Shown here: positions 606-31,126 of the stretch, piece by piece | How the letters are laid out: every line of letters starts with the position of its first letter | Position numbering within the stretch: the stretch's first letter is position 1 | Assembly (NCBI GenBank): GCA_009925925.1 | Contig: RFQA01000011.1 | Span: forward strand, 1-32,880 | Origin: Betaproteobacteria bacterium | GTDB taxonomy: Bacteria > Pseudomonadota > Gammaproteobacteria > Burkholderiales > Burkholderiaceae_C | Direction of reading: 5' to 3' | Length of the DNA stretch: 32,880 bases | Made by a program: the position numbers and the translations under genes | Notes under the pieces: generated by a model | Seen by the model: only the letters and a program-made list of their open reading frames with translations | Database searches by the model: none | What the model was told of the DNA's origin: nothing

Positions 606-608
606 GAT

Positions 609-662
609 GCTACGCTTTTGATAGCTGCTCGCGGCTTAATGACAGGCGCTGGAAGCCTATTT
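609..662 (+). repeat. Dispersed ~55-60 bp repeat, copy 1
   Basis: GCTACGCTTTTGATAGCTGCTCGCGGCTTAATGACAGGCGCTGGAAGCCTATTT; shares ATAGCTGCTCGCG and GGCGCT..A.GCCTATTT with the other copies. Confidence 0.65.
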
Positions 663-1287
663 GACCATCGGAAGTCGGTGGAACCAGTGCCGCAACCCGC
701 GCATCGTGCGTGGCGATCACCAGCGTGGCGCCTTGTTGGGCTGCGGTGGAGAGCAGCAGGCTCACCGCTTGGGCAGCCGATTCGTCGTCCAGGCTGGCGG
801 TGGGTTCATCAGCCAGCAGCACTTGGGGCTTGAGCAGCACCGCACGCGCCAACGCCACCCGCTGCGCCTGCCCGCCGGAGAGTTGGCTGGGCAAGCGTTT
901 GACCAGCTCAGCGACTCCTAGCGCAGCCAACGCGCTGTGGATACGGGCAGTGTCTTCAGCCTGCCCGGCGGCCCATTGCGCCATGGCCAGGTTTTGCTGC
1001 ACGGTGAGCGCCTCGCTCAAATGCAGCTTTTGCGGCAAAAAGCCGATGGCGCCCGCACGCCAGGCGTCTGCCGCCGCACCGCGCAAGGCGGTGACGTCTT
1101 GGCCCGCCACGTGCAACGTACCCGCAGCCGGCGCCACCAACGCGGCCACCATCGCAAGCCAGGTGGACTTGCCGCTGCCCGACGGGCCGCTGAGCAAAAG
1201 CACGGCGCCTTGGGGCACCTGCACATCGGGAAAATGCAACTCGCTGCCGCCGGGGTAGCGGTAGCGCAGACCTTGGCTGTGGATCAT
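610..1287 (-). CDS. ABC transporter ATP-binding protein (LolD/MacB-like)
   Basis: Walker A GPSGSGKS, signature LSGGQAQR, Walker B VLLADEPT. Start MIHSQGLRYRYPGG at 1287 (ATGA overlap with the zur stop) preferred to the longer track ORF. Confidence 0.88.
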   Translation of the reverse strand: MIHSQGLRYRYPGGSELHFPDVQVPQGAVLLLSGPSGSGKSTWLAMVAALVAPAAGTLHVAGQDVTALRGAAADAWRAGAIGFLPQKLHLSEALTVQQNLAMAQWAAGQAEDTARIHSALAALGVAELVKRLPSQLSGGQAQRVALARAVLLKPQVLLADEPTASLDDESAAQAVSLLLSTAAQQGATLVIATHDARVAALVPPTSDGQIGFQRLSLSREQLSKA

Positions 1288-3815: not shown

Positions 3816-4757
3816 ATGACTGCATTCGACACCCTCTCGCTCTCCGCCATCCCCCGCCGTTTTCTCTTGGCCAGTGCCACCGCCCTGGCCTTGCTGGGCA
3901 GCCAAGCCTTCGCGGCCGACAAGCTGCCGGTAACCGCCAGCTTCAGCATTCTGGGCGATCTGGTGCGCGTGGTCGGTGGCGACCGGGTGGCCGTCACCAC
4001 CTTGGTCGGCCCCAATGAAGATGCCCATGTGTTTGAAGCCAAGCCCACTGACGCCAAAACCTTGTTGGAATCCAAACTGGTCGTCACCAACGGATTGGGC
4101 TTTGAACCCTGGGCTGCCAAGCTCATCAAGTCAGCAGGCTACAAGGGCGAGACTGTGGCAGCTACTAAAGGGGTGAAGCCACGACATATGGAGGAAGAGA
4201 AAGGCCACGCCGGCCACGCACACGAAGAAACCGACCCCCACGCCTGGCAAAACCCCGGCAATGTGGTGCTGTACGTGCGCAACATTGCAGCCGGTTTGGC
4301 CAAAGTGGACACTGCAGGTGCCGCCACTTACCAAGCCAACGCCGAGGCCTATGTGAAAGAGCTGCAAGCGCTGGACAGCTGGGCCAAAGAGCAGATCGCC
4401 AACATTCCGGCAGACAAACGCAAGGTCATCACCTCGCACGATGCATTTGGCTACTTTTCAGCGCAGTACGGCGTGAAGTTTTTGGCCCCGCAAGGCGTGA
4501 ACACTGAAGCCGAGCCCAGCGCCAAACAAGTGGCCCAGCTGATCCAACAAATCCAGCGCGAAAAAATCCGCGCCGTGTTTGTGGAAAACATGAGCACGCC
4601 GAAGCTCATCGCCCAACTCAGCAAAGACGCCGGTGCCACCCTGGGCGCCAGCCTGTATGCCGACGCACTGTCCACCGCGGACCAGCCAGGCGCTACCTAC
4701 TTGAAGATGATGCGTCACAACGTGACCCAGCTGGTCGCAGGGATGAAGTTGAACTGA
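3816..4757 (+). CDS. znuA: Zinc ABC transporter substrate-binding protein
   Basis: Signal peptide, His-rich loop (HMEEEKGHAGHAHEETDPHAWQNPGN), VENMSTPKLIAQLSKDAG; downstream of znuCB. Confidence 0.92.
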   Translation: MTAFDTLSLSAIPRRFLLASATALALLGSQAFAADKLPVTASFSILGDLVRVVGGDRVAVTTLVGPNEDAHVFEAKPTDAKTLLESKLVVTNGLGFEPWAAKLIKSAGYKGETVAATKGVKPRHMEEEKGHAGHAHEETDPHAWQNPGNVVLYVRNIAAGLAKVDTAGAATYQANAEAYVKELQALDSWAKEQIANIPADKRKVITSHDAFGYFSAQYGVKFLAPQGVNTEAEPSAKQVAQLIQQIQREKIRAVFVENMSTPKLIAQLSKDAGATLGASLYADALSTADQPGATYLKMMRHNVTQLVAGMKLN

Positions 4758-4767
4758 CACCGGTTTT

Positions 4768-4824
4768 TGCTATACATTCAGGAGCTGCCCGCGCATATTC
4801 TGCGGGCGCCACAGGCGTTTTTGG
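4768..4824 (+). repeat. Dispersed ~55-60 bp repeat, copy 2
   Basis: GCTATACATTCAGGAGCTGCCCGCGCATATTCTGCGGGCGCCACAGGCGTTTTTGG; begins about 10 nt after the znuA stop. Confidence 0.7.
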
Positions 4825-4876
4825 CGCAAATTTCACAATATTGTTTGAATCTGCACAGTTTCCACACTTAAGCACC

Positions 4877-7690: not shown

Positions 7691-10600
7691 TGTGGTTTAC
7701 CCGCGTTAGCCTCCAGAACCCGGTATTTGCCACCATGGTCATGCTGGCCCTGGTGGTGTTGGGCCTGTTTTCGCTGCAACGTTTGCAGGTCGACCAGTTT
7801 CCGAATATCGATTTTCCGGTGGTGGTGATCATCACCGACTATCCCGGCGCCTCGCCCGAAATTGTGGAGAGTGAAGTCTCCAAAAAAGTGGAAGAAGGCG
7901 TCAACTCGATTGCCGGTATCAATGCCCTGACCTCTCGCAGTTACGAAGGCCAGAGTGTGGTGGTGATTGAGTTTGGCCTGCACATCGACGGCCGCAAAGC
8001 GGCGGACGATGTGCGAGAAAAAGTGGCGGCGGTCAAACCGCTGTTGCGCACCGAAGTCAAAGAACCCCGCGTTTTGCGCTTTGACCCCTCTTCCCGCGCC
8101 GTCTGGTCCGTGGCGGTATTGCCGGATACAACTCAGGGCGGCAAAGCACTGACTGCTGTGGAACTGACCAACTGGGCAGAGCAGAACTTCAAAAAGCGCT
8201 TGGAAAATGTACGCGGCGTAGGCTCCGTCACTTTGGTGGGCGGTACCAAGCGCGAGATCAACCTCTACCTGAACCCGCAGGCGCTGGAGTCCTTCGGCAT
8301 CACGCCGGACCAGGTGGTCACCGCAGTCACCAATGAAAACCAGGACCTGCCCCTGGGCACCATCCACTCCAACGAGCAGGAGCGTGTGATTCAGGTACAG
8401 GCCCGCATGCAGCGGCCAGAAGACTTTGGCAGCATCATCGTGGCCCGCAAGGGCGGTACACCGGTACGACTGGACCAGATCGCCCGCGTGGCCGATGGCG
8501 CCCAGGAGGCAGAAACCCTGGCCCTCTACAACGGCCAGCGCACTCTGCTGATGAACGTGCAAAAGTCCCAGGACGAAAACACCATCGTGGTCGTGGATGG
8601 CCTGGTCAAAACTCTGGCCGAGATGCAAAAACAGCTGCCTCCGGGCGTTCGGCTGGAGCAAATCACCGATGGCTCGCGCCAGATTCGCGTGTCGGTCAAC
8701 AACGTGCGCCAAACGCTGATTGAAGGCGCCGTGCTCACGGTGCTCATCGTGTTTCTGTTTTTGAACTCCTGGCGCTCCACGGTCATTACCGGGCTTACCC
8801 TCCCGATTGCGCTGATAGGCACCTTCCTGTTCATGAACGCCTTCGGCTTCACCATCAACATGATCACGCTGATGGCCCTGTCGCTGTGTGTGGGCTTGCT
8901 GATTGATGATGCGATCGTGGTCCGCGAAAACATCGTGCGGCACGTGCAAATGGGCAAAAATGCCTACAACGCCTCGCTGGACGGCACCCAGGAAATCGGC
9001 CTGGCCGTGTTGGCCACCACCCTCTCCATCGTGGCGGTGTTTCTGCCCATCGGCTTCATGGGCGGCATCATCGGCAAGTTCTTCCACGAGTTCGGCATCA
9101 CCATCGTGGCGGCAGTGCTGATCTCGATGTTTGTGAGCTTCACGCTGGATCCCATGCTCTCGAGCATCTGGCATGACCCCAGTATTGAAAGCCACGGCAA
9201 AGGACATGCTCCGGTCACCTTCTACGACAAGACCATAGGCCGCGTTACCGGCCTGTTTGACCGCGGCACCGAGGCGTTGGCTGAGGGCTACCAAAGCATC
9301 CTGCGCTGGGCTTTGCTGCACAAGCTGGCCACAGTGTTGATCGCCGTCGGCATTTTTGTCGGCAGCATCTTGATGGTGCCGCTGCTGGGCACCGAGTTCG
9401 TGCCCAAATCAGACTTCTCTGAGACATCGCTCACCTTCAACACGCCGGTGGGTTCGTCATTGGAAGTGACGGAGTCCCGGGCCCGGCAGGTCGAGGCCAT
9501 CATCCGCGAGTTCCCCGAGGTGCGTTACACGCTGACCACCATCAACACCGGCAATGCGCAGGGAAAGATTTACGCCAACATTTACATCCGCCTTGTGGAC
9601 CGCAAAGACCGCAGCCTGAGCGTGGACCAGATGTCGGTGAAGCTGCGTCAGCGCCTGCGCAATGTGGCCGGCATCACGGTGACCCACGTGGGCTTGCTGG
9701 ATTCAGTGGGCGGGCAGAAGCAGATTTTGTTCTCCATTCAAGGCCCCGACACGCATGAACTCGAGCGACTCACCGCGGTGGCGCTGGACAAGGTGCGCGA
9801 CGTCCCCGGCCTCGTGGACCTGGACTCCAGCATGAAACCCAACAAGCCCACGCTGGACGTGCGGGTGCGACGGGATGCGGCCTCGGACCTCGGCCTGAAT
9901 GTGGCCCAGATCGGCAGCGCCCTGCGCACATTGATCGCCGGAAAGACCGTGGGCAACTGGCGCGCGCCGGACGACCAAACCTATGACGTCAATGTGCGCC
10001 TGGCACCCGATGCGCGCAATGCCGCGTCTGACCTGCAGCGCCTGCCCTTCACCGTAGGCAGCAATGCCGATGGCAGCCCACGCATCGTGCGCCTGAACCA
10101 GGTGGCCGACGTGCGTGAATCCACCGGCCCGAACCAGATCAACCGCCGCGACCTCACCCGCGAGGTGTCCATCAGCGGCAACGTGTCGGGCCGCTCGGCC
10201 GGCGAGGTGTCGGCCGACATCAAGACCGCGATGGACAGCATCAGCCTGCCGCCGGGCTACAGCTACAAATTCAGCGGTTCCACCAAAGACATGGCCGAAG
10301 CCTTCGGCTACGCCATTTCGGCGCTGGTACTGGCTATCGTGTTCATTTACATGATTCTGGCTAGCCAGTTCAAGAGCTTTTTGCAACCACTGGCGCTGAT
10401 GACCTCCCTGCCGCTCACGCTGATCGGCGTGGTGCTGGCACTGATGATGTTCAACTCCACGCTCTCCATGTTCTCCATCATCGGGGTGGTGATGCTGATG
10501 GGCCTGGTCACCAAGAATGCGATTCTGCTGGTGGACTTTGCCATCCGCGCCCGTGAAGGCGGCACGGACGAACAAGGCCATACCGTGCCCGGCTTGCCCC

Positions 10601-13324: not shown

Positions 13325-13403
13325 TAGCTCCCAGAGGCACTTTGATATAAAAAGTACCTCTAGCTCCCGTCGGATATGCGCGAGCAGCTATACAAACAAT
13401 AGC
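13322..13403 (-). repeat. Dispersed ~55-60 bp repeat, copy 3 (with extra inverted arm)
   Basis: Reverse complement GCTATTGTTTGTATAGCTGCTCGCGCATATCCGACGGGAGCTAGAGGTACTTTTT...; AGAGGCACTTT/AAAGTACCTCT inverted repeat at its end. Confidence 0.65.
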
Positions 13404-13405
13404 AG

Positions 13406-24527: not shown

Positions 24528-25079
24528 ATGGCATTGGACATGGAAGACATCGCCGCCTTGTTTGACAAACGTGCAGGCAGCCAATACGGCCGCGAGCCGG
24601 TGAACCAGATGGAGCACGCTCTGCAATGCGCCCTGCTGGCGGAACAGGCCGGCGAGAACGATGAAACCGTAGTGGCCGCGCTACTGCACGACATCGGCCA
24701 CCTGATTGCAGCCGAGCGTGATGGCGTCATGGACGACACCCAGGAGAAGGACGACCTGCACCAGTACGTGGCGCTGCCGTTTTTGCGTGCCCTGCTGCCA
24801 GATGCCGTGCTGGAGCCCATACGCCTGCATGTGGATGCCAAACGCTACCTGTGCGCCACCGAACCCAGCTACTGGGCTGCACTCTCCGAAGGTTCCCAAC
24901 GCAGCCTGGAACTCCAAGGTGGCCCGTTCAGCGAAGCGGAGTTGCAAAGCTTTATAGCCCAACCCTTTGCCGAAGAGGCGGTGCGTCTGCGCCGCTACGA
25001 CGACCTGGCCAAGGTGCCCGGCAAAGCGACCCCGGACTTCAAGTACTTCGCAGAGAAGCTCAGCGCCGTGAGCGCGTAA
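24528..25079 (+). CDS. Phosphonate-associated HD-domain protein, probable PhnZ/TmpB-type diiron oxygenase
   Basis: SQYGREPVNQMEHALQCALLAEQ (Tyr-x-x-Glu plus NQMEHALQCA) and AALLHDIGHL HD motif, then LHVDAKRYLC; last gene of the phnCDE unit. Confidence 0.88.
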   Translation: MALDMEDIAALFDKRAGSQYGREPVNQMEHALQCALLAEQAGENDETVVAALLHDIGHLIAAERDGVMDDTQEKDDLHQYVALPFLRALLPDAVLEPIRLHVDAKRYLCATEPSYWAALSEGSQRSLELQGGPFSEAELQSFIAQPFAEEAVRLRRYDDLAKVPGKATPDFKYFAEKLSAVSA

Positions 25080-26424
25080 GCACAGCGGCCACTTCGGTGG
25101 CCGTTTTCACTGCCGCGCCCCGGTGCGCAGCACCCAAGCCCAAGGCAGCCTCCTGCATGCCTTGCAAGCGGGCTGCATCACCCGCCGTTGCAGCCGCTTC
25201 AGCCACTGCGTGGGCGATGTCTTCACACTGCAGCGCGGCGCCGGCCTCTGCCGCCAAAGTGGAAGCTTCGGTGAAGTTAAAGAGATGCGGCCCCATGAAA
25301 ACCGGCACACCGCAAGCCGCTGCCTCGATCAGGTTCTGCCCGCCCAGTGGTGCAAAGCTGCCGCCCAGCAAAGCCACATGGGCCAAGCCGAAGTAGAGCG
25401 CCATTTCGCCCAGCGAGTCGCCCACCCACACGTCTGCTGTCTCTGGCGCTTCACCCCATTGGCTGCGGCGGGACACGCTGTATGCGGCATCGGCAAACAG
25501 CTGCGCGACTTCTGCGAAACGCTGCGGATGGCGTGGCACCACCAGCAGCTGAAACGGCAAGCCGGTTCTTTGGCCCGATGGGTATGCTATGATTTCAGGA
25601 GCTGCTCGCGCAAATTCCACGGGCGCTAGGGGCCATTTTTGCTTCAAAGCATCGAGCAACATCTGCTCTTCGCCTTCCCGTGAGCTGGCAAACATCAGCA
25701 CCGGGCGACCCGCGCCAGCGCGCCAGGCGCGGCCTCGGGCCAGCAGCGCGGCATCGGGCGTAGCGTCGAACTTGAAATTGCCCAGCACCCCCTGCACCGG
25801 CGCACCCAAAGCGCTAAGGCGCTGGGCATCCGCTTCGCTCTGGGCCCACACCGCATGCAGGCCACGATACGCGGGGCCTGCCAGCCAGCGCAAACGCAAA
25901 GACTCTTGGTAGGTTTTGTCGCTCATGCGGGCGTTGACCAAGCACAGGGGCACGCCGCGCTGTACGCAGCCGGCCACCAGATTGGGCCATACCTCGGTCT
26001 CCATCAGCAAGCCCACATCAGGCCGGAACCGCGCCAAAAAGCCGCCCACCGCCGCAGGCGTGTCCCAGGGCTGCCAGACCTGCATGTCACCCGGCTTCAG
26101 CAAGGCCTTGCCGGCCTCACGGCCCGTGGCGGTGCCGTGGGTCAGCACCAGGCGCATGCCGGGCAGAGCTTCGCGCAAACGGGCCAGCAACACCGCAGCT
26201 GCGCGGGTTTCGCCCAGCGACACAGCGTGCAACCAGACCACGGGTGCGCCACCCGCAGCGGATGCCGGCTGCGGGGCGAACTGAACCGCATCGCCGTAAT
26301 AGCCGAATCGCTCTTCTACCCATTGGCCATACAGCGGCTCTACCTTGGCACGGCGTGCCAATTTGCGCCGCAACCAGGGTTGGGCGGCATAGGTCAACAG
26401 GGAATAGAGGGCACGAGTGATCAT
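25060..26424 (-). CDS. waaA: 3-deoxy-D-manno-octulosonic acid transferase
   Basis: MITRALYSLLTYAAQPWLRRKLARR; VWLHAVSLGETRAA, LMETEVWPNLV, VVPRHPQRFAEV, GGSFAPLGGQNLIEAAACGVPVFMGPHLFNF. Confidence 0.94.
   Translation of the reverse strand: MITRALYSLLTYAAQPWLRRKLARRAKVEPLYGQWVEERFGYYGDAVQFAPQPASAAGGAPVVWLHAVSLGETRAAAVLLARLREALPGMRLVLTHGTATGREAGKALLKPGDMQVWQPWDTPAAVGGFLARFRPDVGLLMETEVWPNLVAGCVQRGVPLCLVNARMSDKTYQESLRLRWLAGPAYRGLHAVWAQSEADAQRLSALGAPVQGVLGNFKFDATPDAALLARGRAWRAGAGRPVLMFASSREGEEQMLLDALKQKWPLAPVEFARAAPEIIAYPSGQRTGLPFQLLVVPRHPQRFAEVAQLFADAAYSVSRRSQWGEAPETADVWVGDSLGEMALYFGLAHVALLGGSFAPLGGQNLIEAAACGVPVFMGPHLFNFTEASTLAAEAGAALQCEDIAHAVAEAAATAGDAARLQGMQEAALGLGAAHRGAAVKTATEVAAVLTRSRR
25086..25107 (+). 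terminator. Rho-independent terminator of phnCDE-HD unit
   Basis: CGGCCAC-TTCG-GTGGCCG-TTTT, perfect 7-bp stem with UUCG tetraloop, 6 nt after the HD gene stop; lies inside the convergent waaA 3' end. Confidence 0.85.
25585..25642 (+). repeat. Dispersed ~55-60 bp repeat, copy 4, inside waaA coding sequence
   Basis: GCTATGATTTCAGGAGCTGCTCGCGCAAATTCCACGGGCGCTAGGGGCCATTTTTGC; shares TTCAGGAGCTGC, CGCGCA and CGGGCGC with copy 2. Confidence 0.75.
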
Positions 26425-29014: not shown

Positions 29015-30592
29015 ATGCCCTCCGCCTTGCCCACCGCCAAACCCGTGCCAGTGACGACCACAGACGATGCCGGCCGCTATCTGGCGCTGCAGGCCAGAGA
29101 TGCGCGGTTTGACGGGCGCTTTTTCACCGGGGTGACCAGCACCGGCATTTACTGCCGCCCGGTGTGCAAAGTGCGCACTCCCAAAGCCGAGAACTGTCGG
29201 TTTTTTGAACGCGCCGCCCAGGCCGAGGCCGCAGGTTTTCGCCCTTGCCTGCGCTGCCGCCCCGAACTCGCACCTGCGCAGAGTGCTGCCCTGCACTGGA
29301 CCACTCAGGACGCCAGTGCCCTGCTCGCCCTGCAAGCGGCGGACCTGATGGAGCATGCCACGCAGGCTGATGACAGCCCCGGCATCGCTGCCATAGCGGC
29401 CAGACTGGGTATCAGCGACCGGCATTTGCGCCGCATTTTCGAGGCGCACTGGGGCCTCACACCGCTGAGCTATCTGCAAACCCGTCGCTTGCTGACGGCC
29501 AAGCAGCTGCTCACCGACACACGACTGCCGGTAGCTGACGTGGCAACCCTCAGCGGATTCGCCAGTGTGCGCCGCTTCAATGCGGCCTTTGTGCAGCATT
29601 ACCGCTTGCATCCCACAGCACTGCGCAAGGTGATGCGTTCCGACTCCCTCGCCGCCCAACTTGGAACCCGAAAAGGTTCCGATGCGCCGCGTGGTTTGGC
29701 GCCTGAGGCTGCGGCTTTCCGTTTCCAAGCGGCCTACCGCCCGCCCTTCAATTTCCAGCACATGCTGAATTTTTTCGCGCAACGTGCCATTGCAGGCATG
29801 GAGTGGGTGGACCCGGAACAGGGTTTGATCCGTCGCACCGTCAGCCTCCAGCACAAGAGCACCACGCTTCGCGGCTGGGTCGAGGCGCAGTGGATGCCTA
29901 ATCAGCATCGCGTGCAGCTACTCATCAGCGAGTCACTGGCCAGCGCCTTGCCGGTGGTGCTCCAGCGCATGCACGCGTGGCTGGATCTGGATGCCGACCC
30001 GGCTGCGGTGGACGCGCTGCTGTGCGCGGACTTCCCCGACACTGAAGGCATGCGGGTGCCCGGCACCATGGACGGTCTGGAGCTGGCGGTGCGCGCCATC
30101 CTGGGCCAACAGATCACCGTCAAAGCAGCCCGCACCTTGACCGACCGGCTGGTGTCGCATTGCGGCGCCACGTTAGCGAATGCGCCCCAAGGTTTGGCGC
30201 TCTTCTTCCCCGATGCCGCCACGCTCGCGGCCCTGTCGCCCGATGCCTTGGGCAGCTTAGGGATCGTTAAACAGCGGCAGCAAGCCATCCTCTCGCTGGC
30301 GCAGGCGGTGCAGTCGGGCGCCCTGAACTTGCAGCCAGGTAGTGATGTACCGGCCACCATGGCGAAGCTTCAGTCCCTGCCCGGTATTGGCGCTTGGACC
30401 GCGCACTACATCGCCTTGCGGGCGCTGCGCTGGCCGGATGCTTTTCCTTCAGGTGATGTGGCGCTGCAGTCCGCATTGGGCGTGCGAGAAGCCAGCGACC
30501 CGGCCGTTGCGGCAGATGCGCTCTCACAACGCTGGCGCCCCTGGCGGGGCTATGCCACCGTGCGGGCATGGCATTCACTATCAAAAACATAG
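29015..30592 (+). CDS. alkA: Ada metal-binding/AraC domain fused to AlkA DNA-3-methyladenine glycosylase II
   Basis: DARFDGRFFTGVTSTGIYCRPVCKVRTPKAENCRFF...GFRPCLRCRPE Ada N-domain; AraC HTH; LGQQITVKAARTLTDRLV and LPGIGAWTAHYIALRALRWPDAFPSGDVALQ glycosylase HhH/Asp. Confidence 0.94.
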   Translation: MPSALPTAKPVPVTTTDDAGRYLALQARDARFDGRFFTGVTSTGIYCRPVCKVRTPKAENCRFFERAAQAEAAGFRPCLRCRPELAPAQSAALHWTTQDASALLALQAADLMEHATQADDSPGIAAIAARLGISDRHLRRIFEAHWGLTPLSYLQTRRLLTAKQLLTDTRLPVADVATLSGFASVRRFNAAFVQHYRLHPTALRKVMRSDSLAAQLGTRKGSDAPRGLAPEAAAFRFQAAYRPPFNFQHMLNFFAQRAIAGMEWVDPEQGLIRRTVSLQHKSTTLRGWVEAQWMPNQHRVQLLISESLASALPVVLQRMHAWLDLDADPAAVDALLCADFPDTEGMRVPGTMDGLELAVRAILGQQITVKAARTLTDRLVSHCGATLANAPQGLALFFPDAATLAALSPDALGSLGIVKQRQQAILSLAQAVQSGALNLQPGSDVPATMAKLQSLPGIGAWTAHYIALRALRWPDAFPSGDVALQSALGVREASDPAVAADALSQRWRPWRGYATVRAWHSLSKT

Positions 30593-30631
30593 CTATTCGC
30601 GCAGTTTCCACCAGCGCCAGAGGCCTATTTC
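30578..30631 (+). repeat. Dispersed ~55-60 bp repeat, copy 5
   Basis: CTATCAAAAACATAGCTATTCGCGCAGTTTCCACCAGCGCCAGAGGCCTATTTC; contains the alkA stop and ends at the ogt start. Confidence 0.65.
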
Positions 30632-31126
30632 ATGAAAATTCCCACTACTGCACACCTGTCCGGCTGGATCAGCCCCTTGGGTCCCATGTTGTTCGCCGGC
30701 CATGATGCTGGACTGCTCGGAGTCTGGTTCGATTCGCAGAAGCACTACCCAGACATCACCGGACTGCCGTTCGCCCCTCACCCCAGCACCACCGAAGCGC
30801 AGGCCCAATTGGCCGCGTACTTTGCCGGCGAGCGAACCCACTTTTCGATGACGCTGGACTTCAGCAGCGGGACCGTGTTTCAGCAATCCGTCTGGCAGGC
30901 ACTGTTGGCGATTCCCTGCGGCGTTACCATCAGCTACTCCACCTTGAGCCAGCAGATCGGCAAGCCTGCCGCCGTACGTGCGGTGGCTGCTGCGGTGGGG
31001 CGCAACCCCTTGAGCATTGTGGTGCCCTGCCACCGCGTGCTGGGCAGCAACGGTAGCCTGACCGGGTATGCCGGTGGCCTGGACCGCAAGGCAGCATTAC
31101 TGAACCTCGAACAACGAAAGCCCTGA
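30632..31126 (+). CDS. ogt: Methylated-DNA-[protein]-cysteine S-methyltransferase
   Basis: FQQSVWQALLAIPCGVTISYSTLSQQIGKPAAVRAVAAAVGRNPLSIVVPCHRVLGSNGSLTGYAGGLDRKAALLNLE. Confidence 0.95.
   Translation: MKIPTTAHLSGWISPLGPMLFAGHDAGLLGVWFDSQKHYPDITGLPFAPHPSTTEAQAQLAAYFAGERTHFSMTLDFSSGTVFQQSVWQALLAIPCGVTISYSTLSQQIGKPAAVRAVAAAVGRNPLSIVVPCHRVLGSNGSLTGYAGGLDRKAALLNLEQRKP

Follow-up and report, generated by a model that had tools for sequence, protein, structure and literature searches.

Is the dispersed repeat that lies in frame within waaA an element that was inserted and tolerated, as the initial annotation proposed, or is it something else? The gene is found in a stretch of DNA of 32,880 nucleotides, which we call the window. 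Its product is assigned by lipid IV(A) Kdo transferase models and by phmmer and Foldseek matches to 2xci/4bfc, the latter confirming the WaaA fold, and it scores 435 bits against NF004386, under the curated cut-off of 524. The relevant features of the locus are the following.

25060 to 26424, minus strand: waaA (kdtA), lipid IV(A) Kdo transferase of 454 aa, start codon ATG at 26424-26422, from the translation.
25584 to 25650, minus strand: full motif copy within waaA, sense, in the stop-free frame, 87 bits.
25605 to 25629, minus strand: first palindrome (CTAGCGC...GCGCGAG), model columns 22-46, from alignment A2.
25586 to 25602, minus strand: second palindrome, GCTCCTGAAATCATAGC, a variant of GCTA-N9-TAGC, model columns 49-65, from the alignment.

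The segment at 25585-25642 had been described as a dispersed repeat read in the frame of waaA, and its sequence, frame and peptide are all as claimed: the minus strand at 25584-25650 is GCTTTGAAGCAAAAATGGCCCCTAGCGCCCGTGGAATTTGCGCGAGCAGCTCCTGAAATCATAGCAT, translated there as (A)LKQKWPLAPVEFARAAPEIIA(Y). The excess of about 21 aa attributed to the repeat was also borne out, since the linker from GEE to VPRHPQRF has 42 aa in the WaaA of the window and 21 aa (63 nt) in that of Pseudomonas. Compared with the Acinetobacter structure (4bfc), the protein has 31 residues at a place where the structure has 10. In the AF2 model, whose mean pLDDT is 90, the sole stretch below 50 (residues 269-285) is where the repeat-encoded segment lies, between the helix 251-262 and the strand 291-296. 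The repeat-encoded linker is predicted by AlphaFold to be a disordered loop.

How dispersed is the repeat? The waaA segment has at least 40 BLAST matches in its own genome, and a covariance model (R1), built from 31 copies aligned almost gap-free, has at least 150. Five copies are in the window (607-673, 4767-4833, 13339-13405, 25584-25650 and 30575-30641), those outside waaA being placed as follows.

607 to 673, minus strand: motif copy overlapping the 3' end of a gene ending at 610, 33 bits.
4767 to 4833, minus strand: motif copy 9 nt past the stop of the gene 3816-4757, 70 bits.
13339 to 13405, plus strand: motif copy between convergent genes, 14 nt past a stop codon, 62.5 bits.
30575 to 30641, minus strand: motif copy between a gene ending at 30592 and a gene starting at 30632, 42.5 bits.

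The motif is a bipartite palindrome of about 55 nt, GCGC-N11-GCGC, 5 nt, GCTA-N9-TAGC. Its conserved core consists of the GCGC pair (model columns 25-28 and 40-43) and of GCTA-N9-TAGC (columns 49-65). Counts over 1 Mb of Rhodoferax set these spacings apart: GCGC-N11-GCGC occurs at 239 per Mb, against about 135 at neighbouring spacers, and GCTA-N9-TAGC at 72 per Mb, against about 4 at other spacers; TGCGC-N4-AGCT was likewise found 65 times in a 1-Mb count, against about 13 at other spacers. In a genome of another genus (G306) GCTA-N9-TAGC still stands out, with 28 per 400 kb where other spacers give about 1.3, whereas the GCGC pair does not, and the second palindrome is therefore the more constant of the two. 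At certain sites, which are likewise shared between species, it stands alone. The loops at model columns 12-15 and 55-58 are AAA(A) in some copies and TTT(T) in others (alignments A3 and A4), as if they had been inverted or freely exchanged.

Two complete relatives have 47 copies in 400 kb (G059) and 57 copies in a 400-kb spread sample (G007), i.e. one copy per 7-9 kb or so; extrapolated from such sampled stretches, the total is about 500 copies per genome. Gaps shorter than 1 kb are rarer than expected by chance (1 observed against 4.5, p=0.048), and the spacing is not regular in general, with a coefficient of variation of 1.0 in a 400-kb region. A replication-strand bias of the kind seen for Chi or KOPS was considered and rejected: a ratio of 23:8 over 200 kb hinted at one, but genome-wide it disappears, with 74 of 150 copies on the plus strand. 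The first 20 kb of G007 have 31.6% GC within a genome of about 60% GC, look like an acquired island and contain no copy of the motif.

The motif is lineage-specific. At E <= 1e-4, with a limited number of candidates scored per genome, matches were found in only three of 150 Burkholderiales genomes, the one carrying the window included, which excludes a chance origin of the repeat matches. Within the GTDB family, which to judge from the names of its organisms probably corresponds to Comamonadaceae and relatives, the motif is confined to a part, namely 40 of 121 genomes and 37 of 115 genera at E <= 1e-6, counts that underestimate genera with another dialect of the motif because the model was trained on Rhodoferax and the filters were strict. 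Among plasmid and phage records, of which probably few come from this family, the motif was found in one plasmid and in no phage.

The history of the WaaA linker can be followed among relatives. The insert, for which a lineage-specific origin had been envisaged, is neither recent nor specific to this genome: most Rhodoferax orthologues, as well as those of Acidovorax and Simplicispira, have a version of it, and several lineages lack it. Long linkers devoid of similarity to the repeat in DNA, the observation most at odds with the original proposal, were mostly unseen, as a GCT-N-AGC palindrome is present in 25 of 30 long linkers and absent from five. In a WaaA tree computed with the linker left out, the motif-bearing linkers require at least seven gains or losses, four of them forced by starred branches, and the short linker of one orthologue (L037) is nested within the Rhodoferax clade with good support. 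The simplest reading is that the insert is old, inherited from an ancestor predating the species and lost several times, with repeated gain as the alternative. One might instead regard the linker as ordinary low-complexity length variation whose likeness to the repeat arose by chance or by convergence of the protein. The five long linkers without the motif fit such variation, but the match in DNA (87 bits) already contradicts it, GCT-N-AGC is kept in orthologues across the genus Rhodoferax, and the motif model is essentially without matches in unrelated genomes. We consider this explanation very improbable.

Does the insertion in WaaA illustrate a general rule? Other genes suggest the opposite. 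The motif site of LolD (48.6 bits) aligns without gaps to E. coli LolD and that of XdhB to Rhodobacter XdhB, and the site in TruB adds only 4 aa relative to the E. coli protein. The length of the LolD segment is 48 aa at every one of 30 loci, taken from different genera, and that of the TruB segment is 43 aa at the readable loci with two exceptions; in both proteins this holds with or without the motif. In NadB nearly the same peptide is encoded in other genera by other codons, and in Rhodoferax by GCGCGAGCAGCTACT...ATAGCA; in the G059 sample ATA makes up 4.6% of isoleucine codons, CTA 2.4% of leucine codons and CGA 5.7% of arginine codons. Hence, the motif in LolD, XdhB, TruB and NadB coincides with native codons, and the length changes slightly or not at all. 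The idea of an element inserted without breaking the frame and tolerated thus suits WaaA, with its extra 21 aa or so in frame and its loop of pLDDT below 50, but fails as a general rule, since in other genes native codons make up the motif, whose core is conserved as DNA. WaaA, where the length did change, is the exception to what most other genes tested show. LolD genes of genera lacking the motif match its core at 54% of positions, against 27% in random coding windows, so that the site looks pre-adapted. One LolD (L231, from genome G216, in which the motif has just one match) reads LAPAACAQAA, which resembles the motif peptide, but its codons there are GC-rich and lack the DNA core; it is possibly a protein fossil left after loss of the motif system.

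Genes called with a simple codon-usage caller, written for this analysis, contain about 40-50% of the motif copies (25 of 52 in the window and G059 together, 20 of 51 in G007 and 13 of 33 in G306). Sense copies inside genes are in frame 0 in 34 of 37 cases (15/17, 10/10 and 9/10 in three genomes) and antisense copies in frame 1 in 18 of 21 (8/8, 8/10 and 2/3). These are the stop-free registers of the consensus, the only one in the case of sense copies, and the motif is thus fitted into genes in open frames, a rule that purifying selection on the proteins would leave. In two adjoining genes (L096:6777-8453 and 8469-10304), which probably encode the pyruvate dehydrogenase E2 and E3 subunits, motif matches lie in Ala-Pro linkers, and may partly reflect the composition of these linkers given their higher GC.

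Roughly half of the copies are intergenic, and many of these, of either orientation, begin no more than about 20 nt from a stop codon. This location, together with the possibility of hairpins, invites the view that the motif acts in mRNA, its hairpins stabilising or ending transcripts past stop codons and the copies within genes being by-products. Several results make such a role improbable. Copies occur in both orientations beside stop codons and inside genes, there is no replication-strand bias, single copies fold no better than shuffled sequences, and RNAalifold gave four pairs with zero covariation. Moreover, no T-run follows the motif, the cores of copies inside genes are conserved too, and none of the curated families of Rfam 15 matches at the motif in the window or in two other loci (L088 and L099).

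The motif is also positionally stable. Among four syntenic genomes, sites whose two flanks can be aligned almost always contain the copy, and we saw almost no insertion polymorphism between these species, i.e. no sign of recent mobility; in one gene (D 7132 against B) there is an empty site about 50 nt shorter. When all pairs are pooled, divergence is 0.028-0.031 in the core and 0.16-0.175 in the other motif columns, and at third codon positions in genes 0.055 in the core and 0.266 in the flanks, but these pairs are non-independent and the sites were chosen for matching the consensus. The test was therefore repeated with one comparison per site, a reference matching the consensus in both classes of columns, and core columns defined from the copies of another genome. 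The core still diverged less than the non-core, both between genes (5/202, 0.025, against 37/339, 0.109; p=2e-4) and within them (2/169, 0.012, against 21/256, 0.082; p=0.0015). The same test at third codon positions was not significant (1/56 against 8/88, p=0.15). Overall, divergence is 4-7-fold lower in core columns than in non-core ones. The latter agree with the consensus at 0.65 for copies in genes and at 0.70 for intergenic copies, where random coding windows give 0.23. This suggests copying, although copying followed by decay looks just like weak selection on these columns.

We infer from these results that the motif is a signal at the level of DNA, under selection, which may work in the manner of uptake sequences or REP. 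The segment in waaA would then be one copy of a lineage-specific, bipartite DNA signal under selection that mostly overlies native codons, a reading to which we give a probability of roughly 0.55. The more specific proposition, that part of the Comamonadaceae keeps a genome-wide DNA signal written in frame over codons of lolD, truB, xdhB and nadB, mostly without effect on length, and within the linker of waaA, is put forward more tentatively, at a little under even odds.

The most serious competitor is a palindromic element that was once mobile, of the MITE or REP kind and perhaps moved by a RAYT-like protein, whose copies are old survivors in the frames where they were tolerated. It would account for the imprint of the consensus in non-core columns within and between genes, for the true insert of about 21 aa in WaaA and for the single shorter empty site. 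A RAYT-like gene is present as well.

L170, 1414 to 2109 (also in L173-L202): RAYT-like gene, matched by REP_Tyr_transpos below the cut-off.

The gene is single-copy, and in Rhodoferax it is accompanied by at most one degenerate motif copy, downstream only, which follows it in two of five loci. However, it is found in 117 of 121 genomes of the family whatever their motif count, and its flanks carry a different motif, GGGGTCAGA...TCTGACCCC; RAYT was accordingly rejected as the mover of the waaA motif. The overlays in LolD, XdhB and NadB, which leave the length unchanged, the one in TruB, which almost does, the near absence of insertion polymorphism and the restriction of constraint to the core also speak against mobility, and we regard this origin as possible but unlikely. 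In many loci the RAYT-like gene is flanked by GGGGTCAGATTCCAATT / AATTGGAATCTGACCCC with a TGTCCC stem, distinct from the waaA motif. Past the stop of this gene there is often a sequence resembling the second palindrome but with GATRTGTCCC at its end instead of ATAGC (L169-L172 and L181), possibly an evolutionary link between the two repeats.

Known systems resemble the motif in different respects. For the WaaA loop, the nearest in behaviour are the Rickettsia palindromic elements (RPE) and their Wolbachia equivalents, dispersed palindromic repeats also tolerated in frame in conserved protein genes (PMC2229807), within which our motif is translated too. RPE are 105-146 bp long, have terminal inverted repeats and are fused as added sequence, whereas the motif has about 55-67 nt and two short palindromes, belongs to Comamonadaceae, seldom lengthens a protein by much, if at all, sits at the same places in different species and shows constraint on its core. 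It lengthens WaaA as an RPE would, but not LolD or XdhB, and TruB hardly, and by the tests applied it is not an RPE. In copy number and position REP sequences and their RAYT are closest: in both cases a chromosome has short palindromes by the hundred, frequently located right after genes, and a RAYT-like gene (PMC2817692). Yet, the GT(A/G)G head of REP was not seen in the motif, the RAYT-like gene is not flanked by two inverted copies, its presence does not track motif abundance, and the share of copies inside called genes is at odds with an extragenic REP. By these tests the motif is not a RAYT-linked REP either. For the overlay in genes, the DNA uptake sequences of Neisseria and Pasteurellaceae come nearest: they too have hundreds of copies, with an intergenic excess and many in genes, where one orientation is commoner (PMC2346458), and the motif likewise numbers in the hundreds and shows a preference of frame or orientation in genes. 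They are 10-12 bp long or so, in contrast to the bipartite motif of about 55 nt.

Part of the motif family was probably reported already. A survey of 2017 listed an unexplained spaced pair in Acidovorax ebreus, GCTTAT(N)5AAGCG, with 114 copies, and found in Rhodoferax ferrireducens the most significant motif pairs of all genomes, 140 (PMC5217627). That pair, whose copies lie near gene ends, shares its N11 geometry with the first palindrome, and from this geometry we infer its identity with the motif. The survey was statistical, without the full element, the frame rule, the overlay or WaaA, and such partial statistics on motif pairs are all that we found in the literature on the motif. The betaproteobacterial repeat element BRE, known in Bordetella and Comamonadaceae with some copies within coding sequences, is set apart by its description: it has about 90 bp, 69% GC and at most 29 copies, in tandem arrays (PMC3110155), and thus differs from the motif in length, GC content and copy number.

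How might such a signal have come about? The motif may be recognised as double-stranded DNA and be maintained by selection at hundreds of places. It might have spread through copies made onto sequence that nearly matched, or through point mutations where sites were pre-adapted, accumulating by analogy with DNA uptake sequences. In waaA it would have brought about 21 codons into a linker where changes in length are tolerated, in an ancestor older than the species, to be lost later in several lineages; in most other genes tested it occupies native codons in the reading frames that its consensus leaves open.

In-frame repeats inside genes need not be insertions, and a conserved peptide, like LAPVEYAxAAxExIA in the family studied here, may stem from a DNA motif instead of protein function. 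If the reading as a selected DNA signal is true, several hundred places per genome would carry a signal strong enough to bias the codons, and even the peptide sequences, of conserved genes, and selection at the level of DNA would shape protein sequence at hundreds of sites in each of these genomes.
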